Positions 56,164-64,000 of a DNA stretch of 64,000 bases are shown here, piece after piece; the stretch's first letter is position 1; every line of letters begins with the position of its first letter. Position numbers and translations under genes: made by a program. Source of the stretch: Sediminibacterium sp. (lineage in GTDB: Bacteria; Bacteroidota; Bacteroidia; Chitinophagales; Chitinophagaceae); contig JAFWCB010000001.1 of assembly GCA_017537025.1 (NCBI GenBank), forward strand, positions 62,001 through 126,000, in the 5' to 3' direction. Below the pieces are notes generated by a model. The model searched no databases, had not been told where the DNA came from, and worked only from the letters and a program-made list of their open reading frames with translations.

Positions 56164-58647
56164 ATGCTAAATAAATATACACGCAATCTGAGTCTCTTCG
56201 TATTACTCTTTACTGCCATCTGCACAGATGCTCAATACCAGTACTTAGGGGGATTCAATAATCAGGGCTACCCTTCTTATTTGGTTACACCCCGCGACAC
56301 AGTTAGTGTATCATTTCGAAATAAAATTGCGGCCACCCTACCGGAATCGAGATCTGTTCCGGTATATAATCCTTTGTTAGTAGCGGATGCCAGAACAGAA
56401 ACCATACAGGTAAATTGCAATTCTGATGTATGGATTTCTTTTGTAGATGAAGGGGCTTCTTTTTTAAATGCGCTCGGTTACTATACTTTTAGTTTAGACA
56501 CACCATTAACCGCTGCGCCTAATCCGAACAAAATAAAAATCATTTTCCCGAACGCATCAAAATCCGGTTCTGGTGGTGCTTTTGAACCGGGAGATAAAGT
56601 ATACCTAGGGAATTTTCCTGCAAGAACTGGAATTGGATTTGTACTAATGGCCGATGGATGGAATGGAACCGTTGTTACACCTGGCAGATGGACGCTTTAT
56701 TCAAATGCTGCATTCAATCCAGAATCGGATTCTACTTTGAAAAAACATACTGTAATTCTCAAAGACACAGTTAATAATCGGCTTGTGATAGGTTTTGAGG
56801 ATATTCGAAGAGACAATCCGGCATGTGATAATGATTTTAATGATGTACTATTTTTTGCTACTGTTTCTCCCGTTAATTGTGTAAATAAATTAGATAGTAT
56901 CCCCATTCTTACAGATGATGGCCATATTGCCTTTTCAGGAAATACGGGCGGCTTGGAGAGTAAAGGATTAGGTGATAAAATAGCAAAGCGTGTTTTTAAT
57001 AAAGCAAAAGCAGGCCTAAATGGAGATATTGATTATAAAAATTTCAAATTAGTATCTGCAGAAAATGGGAACATCCGATCCAACAGTGTTTCAGGTGGAT
57101 TACAACTTTCTGCAATTATGCCAACTCAGATTTTAGATCAAGGTTATACAGCTTATATAACTACGCCAACAGATATACCAAGTATTACTAACGCGAAAGA
57201 GGTAAGGTCTATCGACTTTGTTCAATCTGGTATTTGTAAAGCTGTGGCTTTTGCAACAAAAACATTGGGCGTAATGTATGATCATACCAAGCCCATTTGT
57301 GATAGATTAAAAGGCGCCTCCTTATTGGCTATGGATAATTTCAACCTGAAAGGGTTGAATTTTGTTCGATATACCTTGCAACAAGAAGCCGGTAATATTG
57401 AATATGCCATGAGTTTTACCATCGGTAAGAAGGCAGGGCGGAACAGTTTCTCCTTCCAATCAAACTGGCTAAATAAAGATTATGTTACAGAAGATACCCT
57501 CATTAATTATCAGGTTTGGGGAATCGCTCCCTATTTGTGTGTAGACATGACATTGGATATTCTGGATAAATTGAATGTTATGATGCCGGTTACTCAAAAT
57601 ACACCCAGCGCTGTTTTACCAAAAACATATATTATAAACGGAAACAGAAATGGATCTGTACTCAGTATGACGATTGCCAATGAAACGAATGCCACTAGCG
57701 GGTATTTTGAAGTAGAAGAAAGAGCCACTGAAATCGCCTCTTCAAAAACAGTAAGAATTGTACCATTTAGCATGAAGAGTTCAGCTAAAACAGCGGTTTC
57801 CTTTCCAATGTCAGACGCTTTTGAAAGTAATATCGCAATGTATGTTGGAGGTAAATTACAAGATGTAGTGTATATGAGTGACGGAACATGGGCTTTAGAC
57901 TTTGATAGTACTAAAACCATCATTAAAAATTATAGTGTAACAAATGACTCGGCAAGGCTTCCGGCAGATGAATACCCCGTTTTCAGAAATATCCAGGTAA
58001 CTGCTAATACGAATGATTATGTAACAGCATACAAAGTATTGAGAGGTGCAGGGGCCCTTCAAAACCTTAGTGATTATAAAACAATTAGTTTCAAAGCAAA
58101 AGCTAACGGCAATCTGCGTATTACATTAGTAAAAAATAGTATCACGGATTTTGCTAAACAATACAAAATATTGGTTCCTATTAGTACAGAATTAAAATCC
58201 TATGCGATAAGTTTAAGTGATTTTATATCGGCTGGAAATAACCAACCAATTAATGCGAACGATATTACAACTATTGTTTTCTCCTTTGAAGCTACAGGTG
58301 GTGTGCAAACCACTATCGATGCAACTATTTCTTCCGTTGCTTTCTCAAAAAAGAGCAAGGAGTTTCTTTCGAATCTCCTAGAGCAACAATTACATGTATA
58401 TCCGAATCCGGTAAGGAGCGGAGGAACTGCCTATGCTGCTTTTAAGAGTACAGAAAATACTAATGTAACCGTGAAATTAATTGAAACAGCAACCGGTAAA
58501 ATTGTACAAACGCAACAAGCCAATGCGATTAAAGGAGACAACATGATCCCTATTAAACTTGGCAAGTTGGCTACTCCTACGTTGATCTCCGTAGTAGTGG
58601 AAGGTTCGGGAATTAAGCTAAAGCCGGCTAAAATAATTACAAATTAA
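56164..58647 (+). CDS. DUF4114 domain protein with T9SS sorting domain
   Basis: 827 residues with a signal peptide, an N-terminal domain (YLGGFNNQGYPSYLVTPRDTV) and a DUF4114 region (GFEDIRRDNPACDNDFNDVLFFATV, with acidic, probably calcium-binding residues). A middle beta-rich region follows, and a C-terminal type IX sorting domain (LHVYPNPVRSGGTAYAAF, then KIVQTQQ). It should be delivered to the cell surface. The stop overlaps the response regulator gene by 11 bases on the opposite strand. Exact role unknown. The 290 bases before it are AT-rich with nothing recognisable. Confidence 0.85.
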   Translation: MLNKYTRNLSLFVLLFTAICTDAQYQYLGGFNNQGYPSYLVTPRDTVSVSFRNKIAATLPESRSVPVYNPLLVADARTETIQVNCNSDVWISFVDEGASFLNALGYYTFSLDTPLTAAPNPNKIKIIFPNASKSGSGGAFEPGDKVYLGNFPARTGIGFVLMADGWNGTVVTPGRWTLYSNAAFNPESDSTLKKHTVILKDTVNNRLVIGFEDIRRDNPACDNDFNDVLFFATVSPVNCVNKLDSIPILTDDGHIAFSGNTGGLESKGLGDKIAKRVFNKAKAGLNGDIDYKNFKLVSAENGNIRSNSVSGGLQLSAIMPTQILDQGYTAYITTPTDIPSITNAKEVRSIDFVQSGICKAVAFATKTLGVMYDHTKPICDRLKGASLLAMDNFNLKGLNFVRYTLQQEAGNIEYAMSFTIGKKAGRNSFSFQSNWLNKDYVTEDTLINYQVWGIAPYLCVDMTLDILDKLNVMMPVTQNTPSAVLPKTYIINGNRNGSVLSMTIANETNATSGYFEVEERATEIASSKTVRIVPFSMKSSAKTAVSFPMSDAFESNIAMYVGGKLQDVVYMSDGTWALDFDSTKTIIKNYSVTNDSARLPADEYPVFRNIQVTANTNDYVTAYKVLRGAGALQNLSDYKTISFKAKANGNLRITLVKNSITDFAKQYKILVPISTELKSYAISLSDFISAGNNQPINANDITTIVFSFEATGGVQTTIDATISSVAFSKKSKEFLSNLLEQQLHVYPNPVRSGGTAYAAFKSTENTNVTVKLIETATGKIVQTQQANAIKGDNMIPIKLGKLATPTLISVVVEGSGIKLKPAKIITN

Positions 58648-59275
58648 ACTCGATCATAAACTTAACCAAAGCAGCAGGTGAATTGAGTTTAAGTTTTTGC
58701 ATGATATTCTTACGATGCGTTTCTACTGTGTAAATACTCAAATGTAGTTTTTCGGCTATTTGCTGATTTGTATAGGTTTGTTTCAGGTACAAAAGAATTT
58801 CTTTTTCTCTTTTTGTGAGATCATATTTTCGCAGGAAAGCATCTAATTTTTTAAATGCATCATCATAATTTATTTCCTTTTGTACACTAAAATAAGATTT
58901 CCCGGAATATACCTCCATAATGGCATGATGGAGTTCTGCTTTACTGCTACTTTTTAAAATATATCCATCGGCTCCTGCTGATTTGGCTTCTTGTACAACC
59001 TTCTCATCACTATAGGCCGAAAGCATCAATACTTTCACAGCACCAAAAGATTGCTTGATATATTTGATTGTTTCCAGCCCATTCAAATTGGGCATATTTA
59101 CGTCTAATAAAATCAAATCGGTAGGCACATGTTGTGTTAGCAAATACAAAAGCTGCTTACCATCGTTTGCAATACCACTAATATTAAATTTCTCTTCTCC
59201 CCCGAGAATCATTTTCATCCCCTCCACAAATAGCGGATGATCGTCGGCAATCATTAAATTAATTTTTACATCCAT
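58637..59275 (-). CDS. NarL/FixJ family response regulator, apparently orphan
   Basis: From the ATG at 59275 (MDVKINLMIADDHPLFVEGM) the product is 212 residues, a normal length. The receiver domain has the acidic DD pocket, phospho-Asp in LILLDVNMPNLNG, and Lys in ILKSSSK. The C-terminal LuxR-type helix-turn-helix is LTKREKEILLYLKQTYTNQQIAEKLHLSIYTVETHRKNI. No histidine kinase is next to it. It starts 22 bases after the copper-amine-oxidase-like gene and probably is the last gene of that operon. Confidence 0.92.
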   Translation of the reverse strand: MDVKINLMIADDHPLFVEGMKMILGGEEKFNISGIANDGKQLLYLLTQHVPTDLILLDVNMPNLNGLETIKYIKQSFGAVKVLMLSAYSDEKVVQEAKSAGADGYILKSSSKAELHHAIMEVYSGKSYFSVQKEINYDDAFKKLDAFLRKYDLTKREKEILLYLKQTYTNQQIAEKLHLSIYTVETHRKNIMQKLKLNSPAALVKFMIEFNL

Positions 59276-59297
59276 AGTCTTGTCGCCTAAATATACA

Positions 59298-61061
59298 TTA
59301 TTTATGAAAAGGAACAAATAATGGCCCGGCAAAGCAGGGGTATGTTTTTACCTTATATTGCCCGTTTTCGTAATAGGTCTCAGCCCAACAGTATTTAGAC
59401 GAGGGGGTATCATCATTTTTTAACTGAGGAACATACCATAAAATTAAGTCAGTATTTCGAATATTTTCCTTTATGGGTATCATGAATTTTTCAGGCCCTT
59501 GTTGATAATCAGTATTACAACACGGACCAATGGTTACCAAATCGTTTTGTCCTTCGTTTTTGTCCAAATGATTCTTTGTTACGTATACATATGCATTATC
59601 GCCTCTACCGCCGTCACCAAATTGCCCTCTACCCGGTTCGATAAAATAACCACCATTAGGGCTGGTATTGAGTTTATATTGATACCCTTCTTTCGTATAC
59701 ACAGTTGTAGCGTCTTGTAGTTTCCATCCCTCTTTATCCCAAACTTTCCATTCATCTTTATTCCATTCGGCAAAAAGTTGATTATTACCTGAAAAACCAA
59801 TGCGAAAAACCGGCCTATAAGTACCGTTATTCCCACAGCCTCTCCCAATAGAAGCGCAGCTCATTCGAAATCGACCATCGGTATAAAAAAAATAACGCTG
59901 AGAATAACTGTAATTACAAGGTCCCGGCCATAGTTCACTGAAAAATTTTTGCTCTAACATAAAGCCTGCAACCGTATCCGCTTCAATAATGTCGGCCACC
60001 TGTGGTGGCTCAGTTGCTACCACTGCGGCTTCACTAAAAATCGGACAGCCTACGGCGTCGCTGTATCCAAAACCATCTGTTCCGGAATAACTTACATGCC
60101 AATCTACCAATTTTGCACTGTTGATAACCTGTTGATTCTTATACTTTACATTACTGATCATTAACCCATCAGAAGAAGTGAGTAAGTAATCCATCTCCCA
60201 GCCTTTTTGTGAAAGGGTATTTACTTTATTACAGTAACAATCAGCAATATTTTCATTTTGAATTTTCCGCTCCGTTACAACTGGTTGTTCCAGCTCTTTA
60301 CTGGTGTTAGTCCAACGTAAGCCAACTACCCTAAAATCGGTTAGATCAACGATAGCCCACAATGCTCGATTGCCTTGCACGAAGGTGGGTGCTACACACA
60401 AATGTTGTGAGCGTTCGCAGCGGGTTCGATTCAAGGCGGTTTTAGTAGAAGCCATTACAGGTAAAGATGCTGAGGGTTTAAATCCTAATGCTTTTGTTAC
60501 TTCAGGTGCATCAACTGCAATTTGCACGGCTAGTTTTATTAGCGAGGGAGGCAAATCGGGTTGTGTTTGAGGAAAATGATCAACCGATAATATTTTTTGC
60601 GAGAAAATGTCTACTACAGCCACTGTTGTGAGGTTGTAGGCGTAGTTATACATTTCTACTCGCATGGCCATACCGGGTAGTACCGTCATTCCTTTTCGAA
60701 TATCACCGGGCCGGGCAGGATATACACCAAAGATCTCATTCCAAAGAGGCTTCCCGGTTGCTTTATCAAAAATATATCGGGTAAAAAAAGTATCAGCAAT
60801 AGCTACTTGTTGCGCCACTGCAATCTTTTCATCAAGCCTATCAATAAAAAATTTGATAGGCATCGAAAGGTTAAGCACAGAGTCTTTTTCTAATTTTCTT
60901 TTAATAATATACTTCGCGGTATCAACAGTAGTTTCTTTAAGCAGGTTTTTACGATATTCATTTACATACACCGCATCCTGAGAAGTTTTATGCTGTGAAA
61001 AAACCTGCACGCCTATTAAAAAGCAATAGCTCAACAATACTATTTTATGAAACATCTTCAT
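59298..61061 (-). CDS. Copper amine oxidase-like protein lacking the copper ligands
   Basis: 587 residues with a signal peptide (to ~22). It follows the fold pattern of copper amine oxidases: a small domain with VAVVDIFSQKILSVDHFP (147-164), ALWAIVDLTDFRVVGLRW (233-250), then YLLTSSDGLMISNVKYKNQQVI, CNYSYSQRYFFYTDGRFRM (382-400), where the cofactor Asn-Tyr would be N383-Y384 in the motif, and DLILWYVPQLKND (538-550). The two-His copper motif and the third His expected in the barrel are replaced (GTYRPVFRI; LILWYVPQ). It has about 12 Cys in the mature part. It is probably not a normal amine oxidase and may be a target of the MauG-type enzyme encoded just upstream, to which it overlaps by 4 bases. 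Confidence 0.7.
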   Translation of the reverse strand: MKMFHKIVLLSYCFLIGVQVFSQHKTSQDAVYVNEYRKNLLKETTVDTAKYIIKRKLEKDSVLNLSMPIKFFIDRLDEKIAVAQQVAIADTFFTRYIFDKATGKPLWNEIFGVYPARPGDIRKGMTVLPGMAMRVEMYNYAYNLTTVAVVDIFSQKILSVDHFPQTQPDLPPSLIKLAVQIAVDAPEVTKALGFKPSASLPVMASTKTALNRTRCERSQHLCVAPTFVQGNRALWAIVDLTDFRVVGLRWTNTSKELEQPVVTERKIQNENIADCYCNKVNTLSQKGWEMDYLLTSSDGLMISNVKYKNQQVINSAKLVDWHVSYSGTDGFGYSDAVGCPIFSEAAVVATEPPQVADIIEADTVAGFMLEQKFFSELWPGPCNYSYSQRYFFYTDGRFRMSCASIGRGCGNNGTYRPVFRIGFSGNNQLFAEWNKDEWKVWDKEGWKLQDATTVYTKEGYQYKLNTSPNGGYFIEPGRGQFGDGGRGDNAYVYVTKNHLDKNEGQNDLVTIGPCCNTDYQQGPEKFMIPIKENIRNTDLILWYVPQLKNDDTPSSKYCWAETYYENGQYKVKTYPCFAGPLFVPFHK

Positions 61062-62155
61062 TTGTTTAAAGCTACAAAAAGTAGTTTTTTATTTTTTAAA
61101 TACCCGGTGTCCGTTAAACAATTTAAAAAAGATATTAGATTTTCTTTTTCTTCTTTACTTATACTGAACCCCTTGATTAATTTACTTTTATAAGGGTTTT
61201 GGGAACCGTCGCCAATATGCTCTCCAACTTCAATCTTGCGTCCACCCCTTGCGTAAATATCAATCATTTCGGTTACAGTAGATACACTTCCATCATGTGT
61301 ATAAGGTGCAGTTAATAGTACATTTCGTAAAGATGGGACACGAAACTTACCTTTATCAAAATCATTCTTAGTGATTTCATAAAGCCCCTGATCTGAACGA
61401 GGATAATCCCCAGTCATATCAAGATTATACAACCCTGTATTCTCAAATCGGGATGGTATCAACTTATTTTTAGGGTCCCATACATGACAGGTTCCGCAAT
61501 TTAATTTCCTAGAGAAAAATAATCTCATACCGGCTTTTTCATCAGCCGTTAATATAGATTCATTACCCTCCAAATAGGCATCATACCTTGATGCATGAGA
61601 TACAATAGTTTTCTCAAATGCAGTTATTGCATAAAAAATATTTTTAATTGAAATAGGCGTTTTATGTTTCGGAAAAACAGTATTAAACAAAGCCACATAG
61701 CCGGGTATATTTTTTATCCTTGCACCAACGGCTTGTTCATTTTCCCAACCTAATTCTTTTGGATGTTGATTGAAGAAAGGGAAAAATAACTGCCTATCAA
61801 AACGATGAATACCGCTATCACCCCATGTAAAACTGCCCCTGTACCGTACATTTAGAAGGGAGGGTGTATTTCTTCTTACCGCATAGCCATCTGCTCCAAC
61901 AGCCGTTCTGTATCCGTCTGAAAAAGCCAATGAAGGATCATGACAAGAAGCGCAGGATTTGGTTTGATTATAAGATAAACGAGTGTCGTAAAATAAATAT
62001 CTACCTAACAATGACAATTCCTCACTTGGTTTAGTAAGTTTTTTTTCTGTAGAGGGATAGATATACGATATGAAAAAAAAACTAAGAAAAAGTATGGCAG
62101 TAAGTAAATATTTTTTTTTCACAAACAGCTTTATTGCAGATCTATTAATTGCCAT
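61058..62155 (-). CDS. MauG/dihaem cytochrome c peroxidase-type protein
   Basis: 365 residues from the ATG at 62155 (MAINRSAIKLFVKKKYLL), with a signal or anchor segment LLTAILFLSFFFISYIYP. Two haem-binding motifs, CASCH (68-72) and CGTCH (220-224), and RNTPSLLNVRYRGSFTWGDSG and KFRVPSLRNVLLTAPYTHDGS belong to the MauG/CcpA superfamily. Members reduce peroxide or oxidise protein side chains to build cofactors. A longer start at 62176 overlaps the propeller gene by 46 bases. The gene overlaps both neighbours (25 and 4 bases), so it is in an operon with them. Confidence 0.85.
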   Translation of the reverse strand: MAINRSAIKLFVKKKYLLTAILFLSFFFISYIYPSTEKKLTKPSEELSLLGRYLFYDTRLSYNQTKSCASCHDPSLAFSDGYRTAVGADGYAVRRNTPSLLNVRYRGSFTWGDSGIHRFDRQLFFPFFNQHPKELGWENEQAVGARIKNIPGYVALFNTVFPKHKTPISIKNIFYAITAFEKTIVSHASRYDAYLEGNESILTADEKAGMRLFFSRKLNCGTCHVWDPKNKLIPSRFENTGLYNLDMTGDYPRSDQGLYEITKNDFDKGKFRVPSLRNVLLTAPYTHDGSVSTVTEMIDIYARGGRKIEVGEHIGDGSQNPYKSKLIKGFSISKEEKENLISFLNCLTDTGYLKNKKLLFVALNK

Positions 62156-63135
62156 TTCTTGCTGGCGTAATTCCATTGGAACTTATATTGTGTTTCGGGT
62201 TTTTCGCTGGATGCTTGTAAGTTAAAATTAAATGCGATCCCGTTTACAATCATGGTATTATTTTGAAATCGAATTTTTCTGGCCTTATCATCTCCCCTGG
62301 GACCAATCCCTACTAAGCTGAGCTCTTTTCGAAGGGATGACTTTACAAATTTATTTTTTGAATTAACCGCAACAGAATAAATATCTCCGGTTCTCGCTTT
62401 TCCAAAATATACTCTTTTATTACCTAACTCATCAAGTGCCAATGTTAGTCCGATGGCATCAATACCTACCAAGGAATCTGATTTTCTTTTCGTATCTGCA
62501 TGAATGATATAAATAATGCCGGCTTCTTTTTGTCTATTTGATGCAGCAACGGTGGCACAGTATAGGTAATGAGCTATACAATCATAGGCAATCCCTAATA
62601 AACCATAGGGGTTCTCTAGACTTGTTTTTTTGTTCGGTAGGATGGCTAACCAAGGCTGCATGTCACCTGTAAGATTTTTTATTCGGTATACTGTGTTGAG
62701 CTTTTCGATTGGGTTATTAAGCATAGAAATAAAAGGAGAAGGAATCACATATGCATTTCCAAATTTGTCGAAACATATAGCCGATAAATATCCGGCGCTT
62801 CTCCAACTGGGATGTTGATATACTGTTTCTCTGGGTCCGTTAGGTAAAGGAGAACTAATACCATCAACTTTCTTATAAGCGATTAATACCGCACCCATTT
62901 TTTGTTTTTCAGAAGTACTGAGGGCTGTCCATAAGGGATCAAAACCCAGGGTTTGGATAAATGCCGGAGGTTGATTACAGGGTTTTATCTCTTGTTGTGC
63001 TATCGAAGACATTCCCAAAAAGAGAAAAAAACCGATAATTGGGATACCCAGAAGTTGGGTTTTTCCAAAAAAAAGACAGAATGTGGGTATTTTTTTTAAA
63101 AAAAATAATTTCAAACTTATTATATTGATTTTCAA
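62131..63135 (-). CDS. Exported beta-propeller-like protein of the MauG unit
   Basis: 334 residues. An unusual N-terminus (MKINIISLKLFFLKKIPTF) precedes a probable signal (LLGIPIIGFFLFLGMSSIAQQ). The mature part has repeated beta blades: SAICFDKFGNAYVIPSPFI, PYGLLGIAYDCIAHYLYCATVAA, GIDAIGLTLALDELGNKRVYFGKARTGDIYSVAV. It resembles NHL/SMP-30-like propellers but I cannot name a family. It is the first gene of the four-gene unit and overlaps the MauG gene by 25 bases. Confidence 0.68.
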   Translation of the reverse strand: MKINIISLKLFFLKKIPTFCLFFGKTQLLGIPIIGFFLFLGMSSIAQQEIKPCNQPPAFIQTLGFDPLWTALSTSEKQKMGAVLIAYKKVDGISSPLPNGPRETVYQHPSWRSAGYLSAICFDKFGNAYVIPSPFISMLNNPIEKLNTVYRIKNLTGDMQPWLAILPNKKTSLENPYGLLGIAYDCIAHYLYCATVAASNRQKEAGIIYIIHADTKRKSDSLVGIDAIGLTLALDELGNKRVYFGKARTGDIYSVAVNSKNKFVKSSLRKELSLVGIGPRGDDKARKIRFQNNTMIVNGIAFNFNLQASSEKPETQYKFQWNYASKKWQLIDLQ

Positions 63136-63436: not shown

Positions 63437-64000
63437 ATGGATAATTTCTACTCTTTTCAAACCTACCAAAAAAAGAATAAAGGAAGATTCTCTCTTTATT
63501 TTCTTTTTGCTCTTGGTTTCCTTGCCTTTTCACAAATGCTAACTGCCCAAACTTCGGTTACAGGTACCGTGTACCGTGATTTTAATGGAAGTGGAGCAAA
63601 AGAAAACACTAGTGCTTATAATGAACCGGGTGTATCAGGGGTAACTGTGAAAGCTTATAGCGCAGCGGGAGTTTTGCTTGCCACTGCAACTACTAACGCG
63701 AATGGCGTCTATACTTTTAGTGCGCCTGCCGTAGCTAACAATACAAAAGTTCGTCTGGAATTTACAGGTTGGCAGAGTAGTGATTATCCCGCCCCTACCG
63801 GGTTGAATAGCAAATCAAGTGTGCAGTTTGCTACAGCTAATACAACAACTCCTGCAGTTGCTGATTTTGGTATTAATTACCCAGGGCACTATGTAGATAA
63901 TTTAAACGCAAGAATTGTAGTCCCAACTTATGTGAATGGCGATAATCAAACCATTACCGGTAATTGGTACGATGCCTCAGAAGGAGATGGTGCTTATGCA
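63437..64000 (+). CDS. SdrD B-like domain surface protein, N-terminal part
   Basis: The reading frame opens at ATG 63437 and runs off the window (188 codons inside it). A signal peptide of ~38 residues ends MLTAQ. The mature protein starts SVTGTVYRDFNGSGAKENT with the SdrD_B/carboxypeptidase-like fold pattern (GVSGVTVKAYSAAGVLLATATTNANGVYTFSAP), then DFGINYPGHYVDN. It is probably the start of a large, T9SS-exported adhesin-like protein. It is transcribed away from the MauG unit. The rest lies beyond 64000. Confidence 0.82.
   Translation, partial: MDNFYSFQTYQKKNKGRFSLYFLFALGFLAFSQMLTAQTSVTGTVYRDFNGSGAKENTSAYNEPGVSGVTVKAYSAAGVLLATATTNANGVYTFSAPAVANNTKVRLEFTGWQSSDYPAPTGLNSKSSVQFATANTTTPAVADFGINYPGHYVDNLNARIVVPTYVNGDNQTITGNWYDASEGDGAYA

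Follow-up and report, generated by a model that had tools for sequence, protein, structure and literature searches.

A 64,000-nucleotide stretch of a Sediminibacterium genome (hereafter the window; C29:62001-126000 of a 3.19-Mb genome in 29 contigs) carries three adjacent genes, whose products we call C, P and M, that may constitute a new protein-modification system. C is predicted to adopt the copper amine oxidase (CAO) fold without its copper ligands, P is probably an exported β-propeller protein and M is a di-heme enzyme. C and P form a conserved core, and M is conserved with this core in Bacteroidota. We infer that the three proteins contact one another physically, with M as an enzyme modifying C or P, which would be the theme of a di-heme enzyme and its partner in a new form.

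The association of these genes is recurrent. One scan of the genome-contig collection returned 128 relatives of C, 80 of which were kept as loci; by record title these come mostly from Bacteroidota, then from Chloroflexota, with single metagenome-assembled genomes (MAGs) labelled Acidobacteria and Burkholderiales. When the 80 loci were searched with profiles in six frames, 70 yielded P and 53 yielded M. Where at least 2.5 kb was available on both sides of C (57 loci), P was present in 53 and M in 38, supporting the link between propeller, di-heme and CAO-like genes drawn in an initial annotation of the window. Four of these 57 loci are without P; the genomes of three (L067, L075 and L093) hold P elsewhere, that of L062 (2.8 Mb) does not, and P is also found elsewhere in the genome of L105, a locus with short flanks. 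Within the window's family C is patchy, occurring in 14 of 294 genomes and 7 of 101 genera, and of four further genomes of the window's genus in this draw, three lack it. Thirteen family genomes have both C and P, one has C only and one has P only, and in both odd cases the gene seen sits at a contig end; the corresponding Fisher p of about 1e-20 ignores relatedness and is not to be taken as a probability. A second copy of C was not found in the window's genome. Plasmid records gave no match to C, and the P profile found no relevant PDB sequence.

Conservation was assessed in alignments of the window's protein with 64 of 77 C open reading frames (ORFs; alignment A4), 48 of 67 P ORFs (A5) and 37 of 53 M ORFs (A6), chosen by eye; the ORFs omitted were those that were short or broken, near-copies such as L034 (94 percent) and a number of other full-length rows. 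By a crude count, 63 of 65 C, 45 of 49 P and 37 of 38 M proteins have a hydrophobic stretch at the N terminus, and 39, 25 and 12, respectively, have a lipobox, which suggests that all three are exported.

The CAO-like layout of C, first read from the sequence, is supported by a predicted structure and by a profile–profile match. An 11-row CAO profile matched the C profile with a probability of 95.9; a single CAO sequence gave 2.3 against the same profile, and no CAO was found among PDB sequences with one C protein or a 13-row C profile as query. PF01179 scored 26.0 bits on the window's C against a gathering threshold of 27 (at the cut-off in another search), over residues 281-329 only, and all 13 members of a smaller C alignment (A1) match it at E<=0.1. 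The same model matched one of 247 Bacteroidia genomes, the window's own (L126), and the E. coli among its 14 controls gave no match, though K-12 MG1655 has tynA; with its sensitivity unproven, this survey was not used. By prediction, the C family is a CAO fold that lacks copper ligands; the libraries searched contain no model dedicated to it.

What has become of the copper site is clear from the 65 aligned C proteins, none of which has a His at the positions aligned with the three CAO copper ligands. The first, position 413, is Gly in 62 and Ala in 3, and the second and third are Y415 and N549 in all 65; H220 and H322 are the only invariant His of the family. C382 and Y384 are likewise invariant and N383 is kept in 62, so that both the missing ligands and the retained Asn-Tyr (N383-Y384) of the initial annotation are confirmed, as is its estimate of about 12 cysteines (13, of which 12 lie outside the signal region). 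The topaquinone (TPQ) site of the window's C reads P-C-N-Y-S, with Asn-Tyr kept and the Thr and Asp/Glu of the consensus given in an excerpt of PMC3382800 absent. C Y325 is aligned with the CAO active-site Tyr, TynA Tyr399, and the catalytic Asp falls in a deletion of C in both sequence alignments. Overall, 74 columns are invariant in the 65 C proteins, which span several phyla, versus 11 in 49 P proteins. The surroundings of the former cofactor tyrosine appear, from these alignments, to be a new and strictly kept residue set (Y384, Y415, N549 and Y325), and because this set replaces the copper site, C is probably a repurposed protein and not a decayed one.

M scores 145.2 bits against Pfam CCP_MauG and 354.2 bits against NCBIfam TIGR04039, just under the cut-off of 362.85; three Ms of the same clade that lie away from C score 378.6, 319.7 and 316.5 on the latter. 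Among PDB entries it most closely matches 6e1c ('Di-heme enzyme', E 2.6e-74), which we take to be Methylosinus MbnH. Both CxxCH motifs noticed at first are present, with their heme ligands His79 and His231 in 38 of 38 Ms. The label MauG, which the gene had been given, does not hold if taken strictly: a score of 157.5 bits with TIGR03791, the MauG model, whose cut-off is 443.85, rules out a true MauG. The broader idea of a di-heme family thought to modify partner proteins stands, as TIGR04039 is the MbnH family, whose pairing with MbnP is described in an excerpt of PMC3621798.

Matches to the M profile at 1e-40 occur in 255 of the 294 family genomes. With up to six candidates scored per genome, the matches listed fall into two sets, 16 of at least 409 bits, all in genomes with C, and others of at most 265 bits. 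In a midpoint-rooted tree the 38 linked Ms fall into a single clade with 10 further rows that represent 8 different sequences (Shimodaira–Hasegawa-like approximate likelihood-ratio support, SH-aLRT, 99). All ten further rows, including a 265-bit partial match in G122, come from C-carrying genomes, where they lie away from C or are second copies; the 16 lower-scoring family genes entered in the tree all fall outside the clade. The tree is without the 302-310-aa Ms of L039-L045 and L047, which a length filter dropped. The nearest row outside the clade is an MbnH (506 bits) beside an MbnP (292 bits) in the genome of L085, and in the 80 C loci, queries with two MbnP sequences and with their profile brought up no MbnP-like frame.

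That M, C and P are neighbours by accident and act independently is very improbable. The M clade is seen only in genomes with C, even where it is unlinked, P likewise co-occurs with C even where unlinked, and the gene orders seen (PMC, MCP and CPM) all keep the genes together; on the other side stand four Bacteroidota genomes in which clade M lies away from C, and the absence of M from Chloroflexota.

Two other arrangements of related genes were seen. In the window's genome, apart from the unit, another gene resembles MbnH (189.6 bits) and has a weak MbnP match (28.2 bits) for a neighbour (contig C23:532788-534562, L180:5789-7563). Three genomes of one genus (L168, L169 and L170) have a second clade M away from C, each beside a divergent 182-aa ORF; that of L169, the one checked, matches no NCBIfam family.

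MbnH makes the kynurenine of MbnP. A paper by Manesis from 2021, cited in PMC9426467, reportedly concerns, by its title, kynurenine-dependent copper binding. We tentatively favour a similar reading for the present genes, while giving it somewhat less than even weight: C and P would be two exported proteins that work together, and M most likely uses hydrogen peroxide (H2O2) to oxidise aromatic residues in one of them, as MbnH does on a Trp of MbnP and MauG on methylamine dehydrogenase. In Bacteroidota, this MbnH-type di-heme peroxidase is tied to C and P in place of the usual partner MbnP, and oxidation would mature or tune the C/P complex.

M could instead be a redox partner, either accepting electrons in its hemes from a redox centre in C or removing H2O2 made near C, with the loss of copper removing the reaction with O2 and turning an oxidase fold into a dehydrogenase. 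We consider this possible, if clearly less probable. M belongs to the CCP_MauG peroxidase superfamily and is optional across phyla, as an electron acceptor could be; yet the nearest row to its clade sits beside MbnP, a modification target, and no cofactor is known in C. We know of no copper-free route to TPQ, which also counts against this idea. In CAOs, according to an excerpt of PMC3382800, copper drives the self-made TPQ, and the loss of the copper ligands from C is in keeping with a changed redox role. A further proposal is that C is a quinoprotein that has given up self-made topaquinone, its Tyr384 or a neighbouring Cys, Tyr or Trp being made into the cofactor. In Bacteroidota M would do this in trans, in Chloroflexota some other route would serve, and the propeller would be a partner subunit; this we regard as improbable.

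Several observations weigh against modification of C or P by M as we favour it, among them genomes that have C without M. Of the 27 loci at which no M is linked, 16 had their whole genomes searched; for the other eleven (L046, L061, L083, L086, L088, L090, L094, L097, L099, L100 and L105), several of which end at contig edges, absence refers to the locus alone. A clade M lies away from C in the genomes of L057, L067, L075 and L093, and the best match in the L085 genome is the MbnP-linked MbnH. L087, a Cytophagaceae MAG, is the only one of five searched Bacteroidota genomes without clade M. None of ten Chloroflexota genomes searched whole has it. At E<=0.001, M has no match in three Herpetosiphon genomes or in that of L113, all of which carry C and P; L078 and L106 give only partial, weaker matches, and in four others a MauG-type domain lies inside open frames of 763-790 aa, outside the M clade. 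Y384, Y415 and N549 are nevertheless kept in the aligned C proteins of Chloroflexota without M. Fifteen rows without M (13 Chloroflexota, L085 and L097) lie on one side of a branch of the C tree with support 92, five of them (L083, L088, L097, L100 and L105) with absence judged at the locus only, and L087 stands alone. As Chloroflexota keep C, P and Tyr384 without M, M is no strict requirement for C and is not generally needed for whatever Y384 does; it is an addition tied to the Bacteroidota lineage.

Other points bear on the same reading. The Foldseek TM-scores of the C model are only 0.44-0.51 by query length, and at most seven P and six M first-look candidates were scored per family genome, so either gene may be missed. 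In M, the positions of the inter-heme Trp and of Tyr308, a candidate axial ligand, were matched by spacing. At these positions, the Trp aligned with MauG Trp93 is missing in 12 of 38 Ms and Tyr308 is replaced by Phe or Ser in 8 of 38; since neither is universal, the chemistry of M may differ between lineages. MauG Trp93 is an inter-heme Trp with a described role (PMC6405878, in part). Finally, no aromatic residue in the aligned C rows tracks the presence of M.

Two residues at first appeared to be linked to M. Position 275 of C holds Cys in 41 of 44 proteins with M and in none of 14 without (7 rows of unclear label set aside), and P Tyr317 is present in 33 of 33 with M versus 2 of 11 without (5 rows set aside). 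Exception rows show that both follow phylogeny: L054, L082 and L098 have M and no Cys at 275, and L087, without M, has it; L087 and L085 keep Tyr317. The invariant Trps W250, W288, W542 and W559 of C and W111 of P are present both with and without M. Such comparisons have little power, because absence of M changes only about twice on the C tree.

C and P might also be a binding or structural complex at the cell surface, tied to giant exported proteins encoded nearby, with M modifying that surface protein or acting alone; we consider this unlikely. Its basis is a loose blast cluster, here F3, that joins SdrD-B giants and DUF4114 proteins (three members only were checked against Pfam). An F3 ORF directly adjoins the unit in 31 of 79 loci. 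In 43 of 80 one lies somewhere in the fetched stretch, and F3 ORFs occur near the Herpetosiphon C and P genes as well; none was seen in the fetched stretch of the other 37, though many of these are short. No activity of C is known, and the deletion into which the catalytic Asp falls in the alignments would suit a binding role; the many invariant columns of C, set against the few in P, are unlike a passive scaffold.

A divergent 1394-aa F3 protein with SdrD-B domains and a weak type IX secretion system (T9SS) sorting tail (23.9 bits, below cut-off) lies at 63437-64000 of the window and L016:6437-10621, and an 827-aa DUF4114 protein (56164-58647) converges on a response regulator gene next to C. 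Similar-sized F3 ORFs are found at the same place in several Sediminibacterium-like loci. In Anaerolineae genomes with C and P, a MauG-type domain is found in ORFs of about 760 aa (L181:4091-6364 and L182:4007-6307), on other contigs than C.

The response regulator itself (receiver 94.3 bits, GerE 62.6 bits) had been proposed to read out the system as the fourth gene of a unit. It adjoins C in only 16 of 79 loci, and those on the C tree all fall in one 15-row clade, which rules it out as part of the system. Of the four-gene unit first described there remain the C and P core and the M kept with it in Bacteroidota; the regulator is lineage-specific. The four ORFs follow one another on the minus strand in the order P, M, C, response regulator, from 63135 down to 58637 (Table 1). 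The compact, one-strand layout was rightly described: P and M overlap by 46 bases from the first ATG of M, or by the 25 bases originally given if its second Met is used, M and C overlap by 4 bases, and 22 bases separate C from the regulator.

Table 1. Features of the C, P and M genes and the adjoining regulator, in window coordinates.
Feature	Position	Strand	Remarks
P, probably exported beta-propeller protein	62131..63135	-	334 aa from TTG start; true start uncertain
M, di-heme enzyme, sub-clade of MbnH family	61058..62176	-	372 aa; Pfam CCP_MauG, NCBIfam TIGR04039, PDB match
M first CxxCH, C75-H79	61940..61954	-	His79 kept in 38/38 Ms
M second CxxCH, C227-H231	61484..61498	-	His231 kept in 38/38 Ms
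C, copper amine oxidase fold (predicted) without copper ligands	59298..61061	-	587 aa, signal peptide
C residues C382-N383-Y384, Asn-Tyr of cofactor site and invariant Cys	59910..59918	-	aligned to E. coli TynA N495-Y496
C Y415, position of second copper-ligand His	59817..59819	-	offset from anchor Arg561/Arg420 in alignment
C N549, position of third copper-ligand His	59415..59417	-	offset from anchor Trp712/Trp542 in alignment
Response regulator, NarL/LuxR type	58637..59275	-	counted from ATG; open frame starts upstream at TTG

If M does modify C or P, the short list of proteins that MauG/MbnH di-heme enzymes rewrite would gain another, structurally unrelated kind of partner. C would also exemplify a CAO fold under strong constraint after the loss of its copper site, and the natural lineages with C and P and no M make the contribution of M open to comparison between systems. 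Dyadobacter soli and Sediminibacterium salmoneum, both cultured, have all three genes, and the genome of Herpetosiphon aurantiacus gives no match to M. Among the literature matches listed, mostly outside the subscription literature, no paper describes such a gene set in its title or the start of its abstract.

Four known systems invite comparison. The first is MbnP/MbnH (TIGR04052/TIGR04039), a widely conserved pair according to an excerpt of PMC3621798: M is an MbnH-family enzyme and the row nearest its clade is an MbnH beside MbnP, whereas M of the window falls just short of the family cut-off, no MbnP was found at the 80 C loci, and M is constantly accompanied by a CAO-fold protein and a propeller. 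With the copper amine oxidases (PF01179), C shares the full fold, as predicted, along with the Asn-Tyr at the TPQ site and the Tyr of the active site. In the methylamine dehydrogenase (mau) system, too, a MauG-type di-heme enzyme occurs with a propeller and a redox-type protein (excerpts of PMC7876137 and PMC5739008), but M does not reach the MauG cut-off and C has the CAO fold. The mtoX-SCO1/senC-mauG cluster, for a copper-dependent methanethiol oxidase with a SCO1 chaperone gene and a presumed protein-derived cofactor (PMC5739008, in part), also has a MauG-type gene next to that of the enzyme it presumably targets; C differs in being without the CAO copper ligands, and no SCO1 gene, for which no profile search was made, was noted as belonging to the unit.

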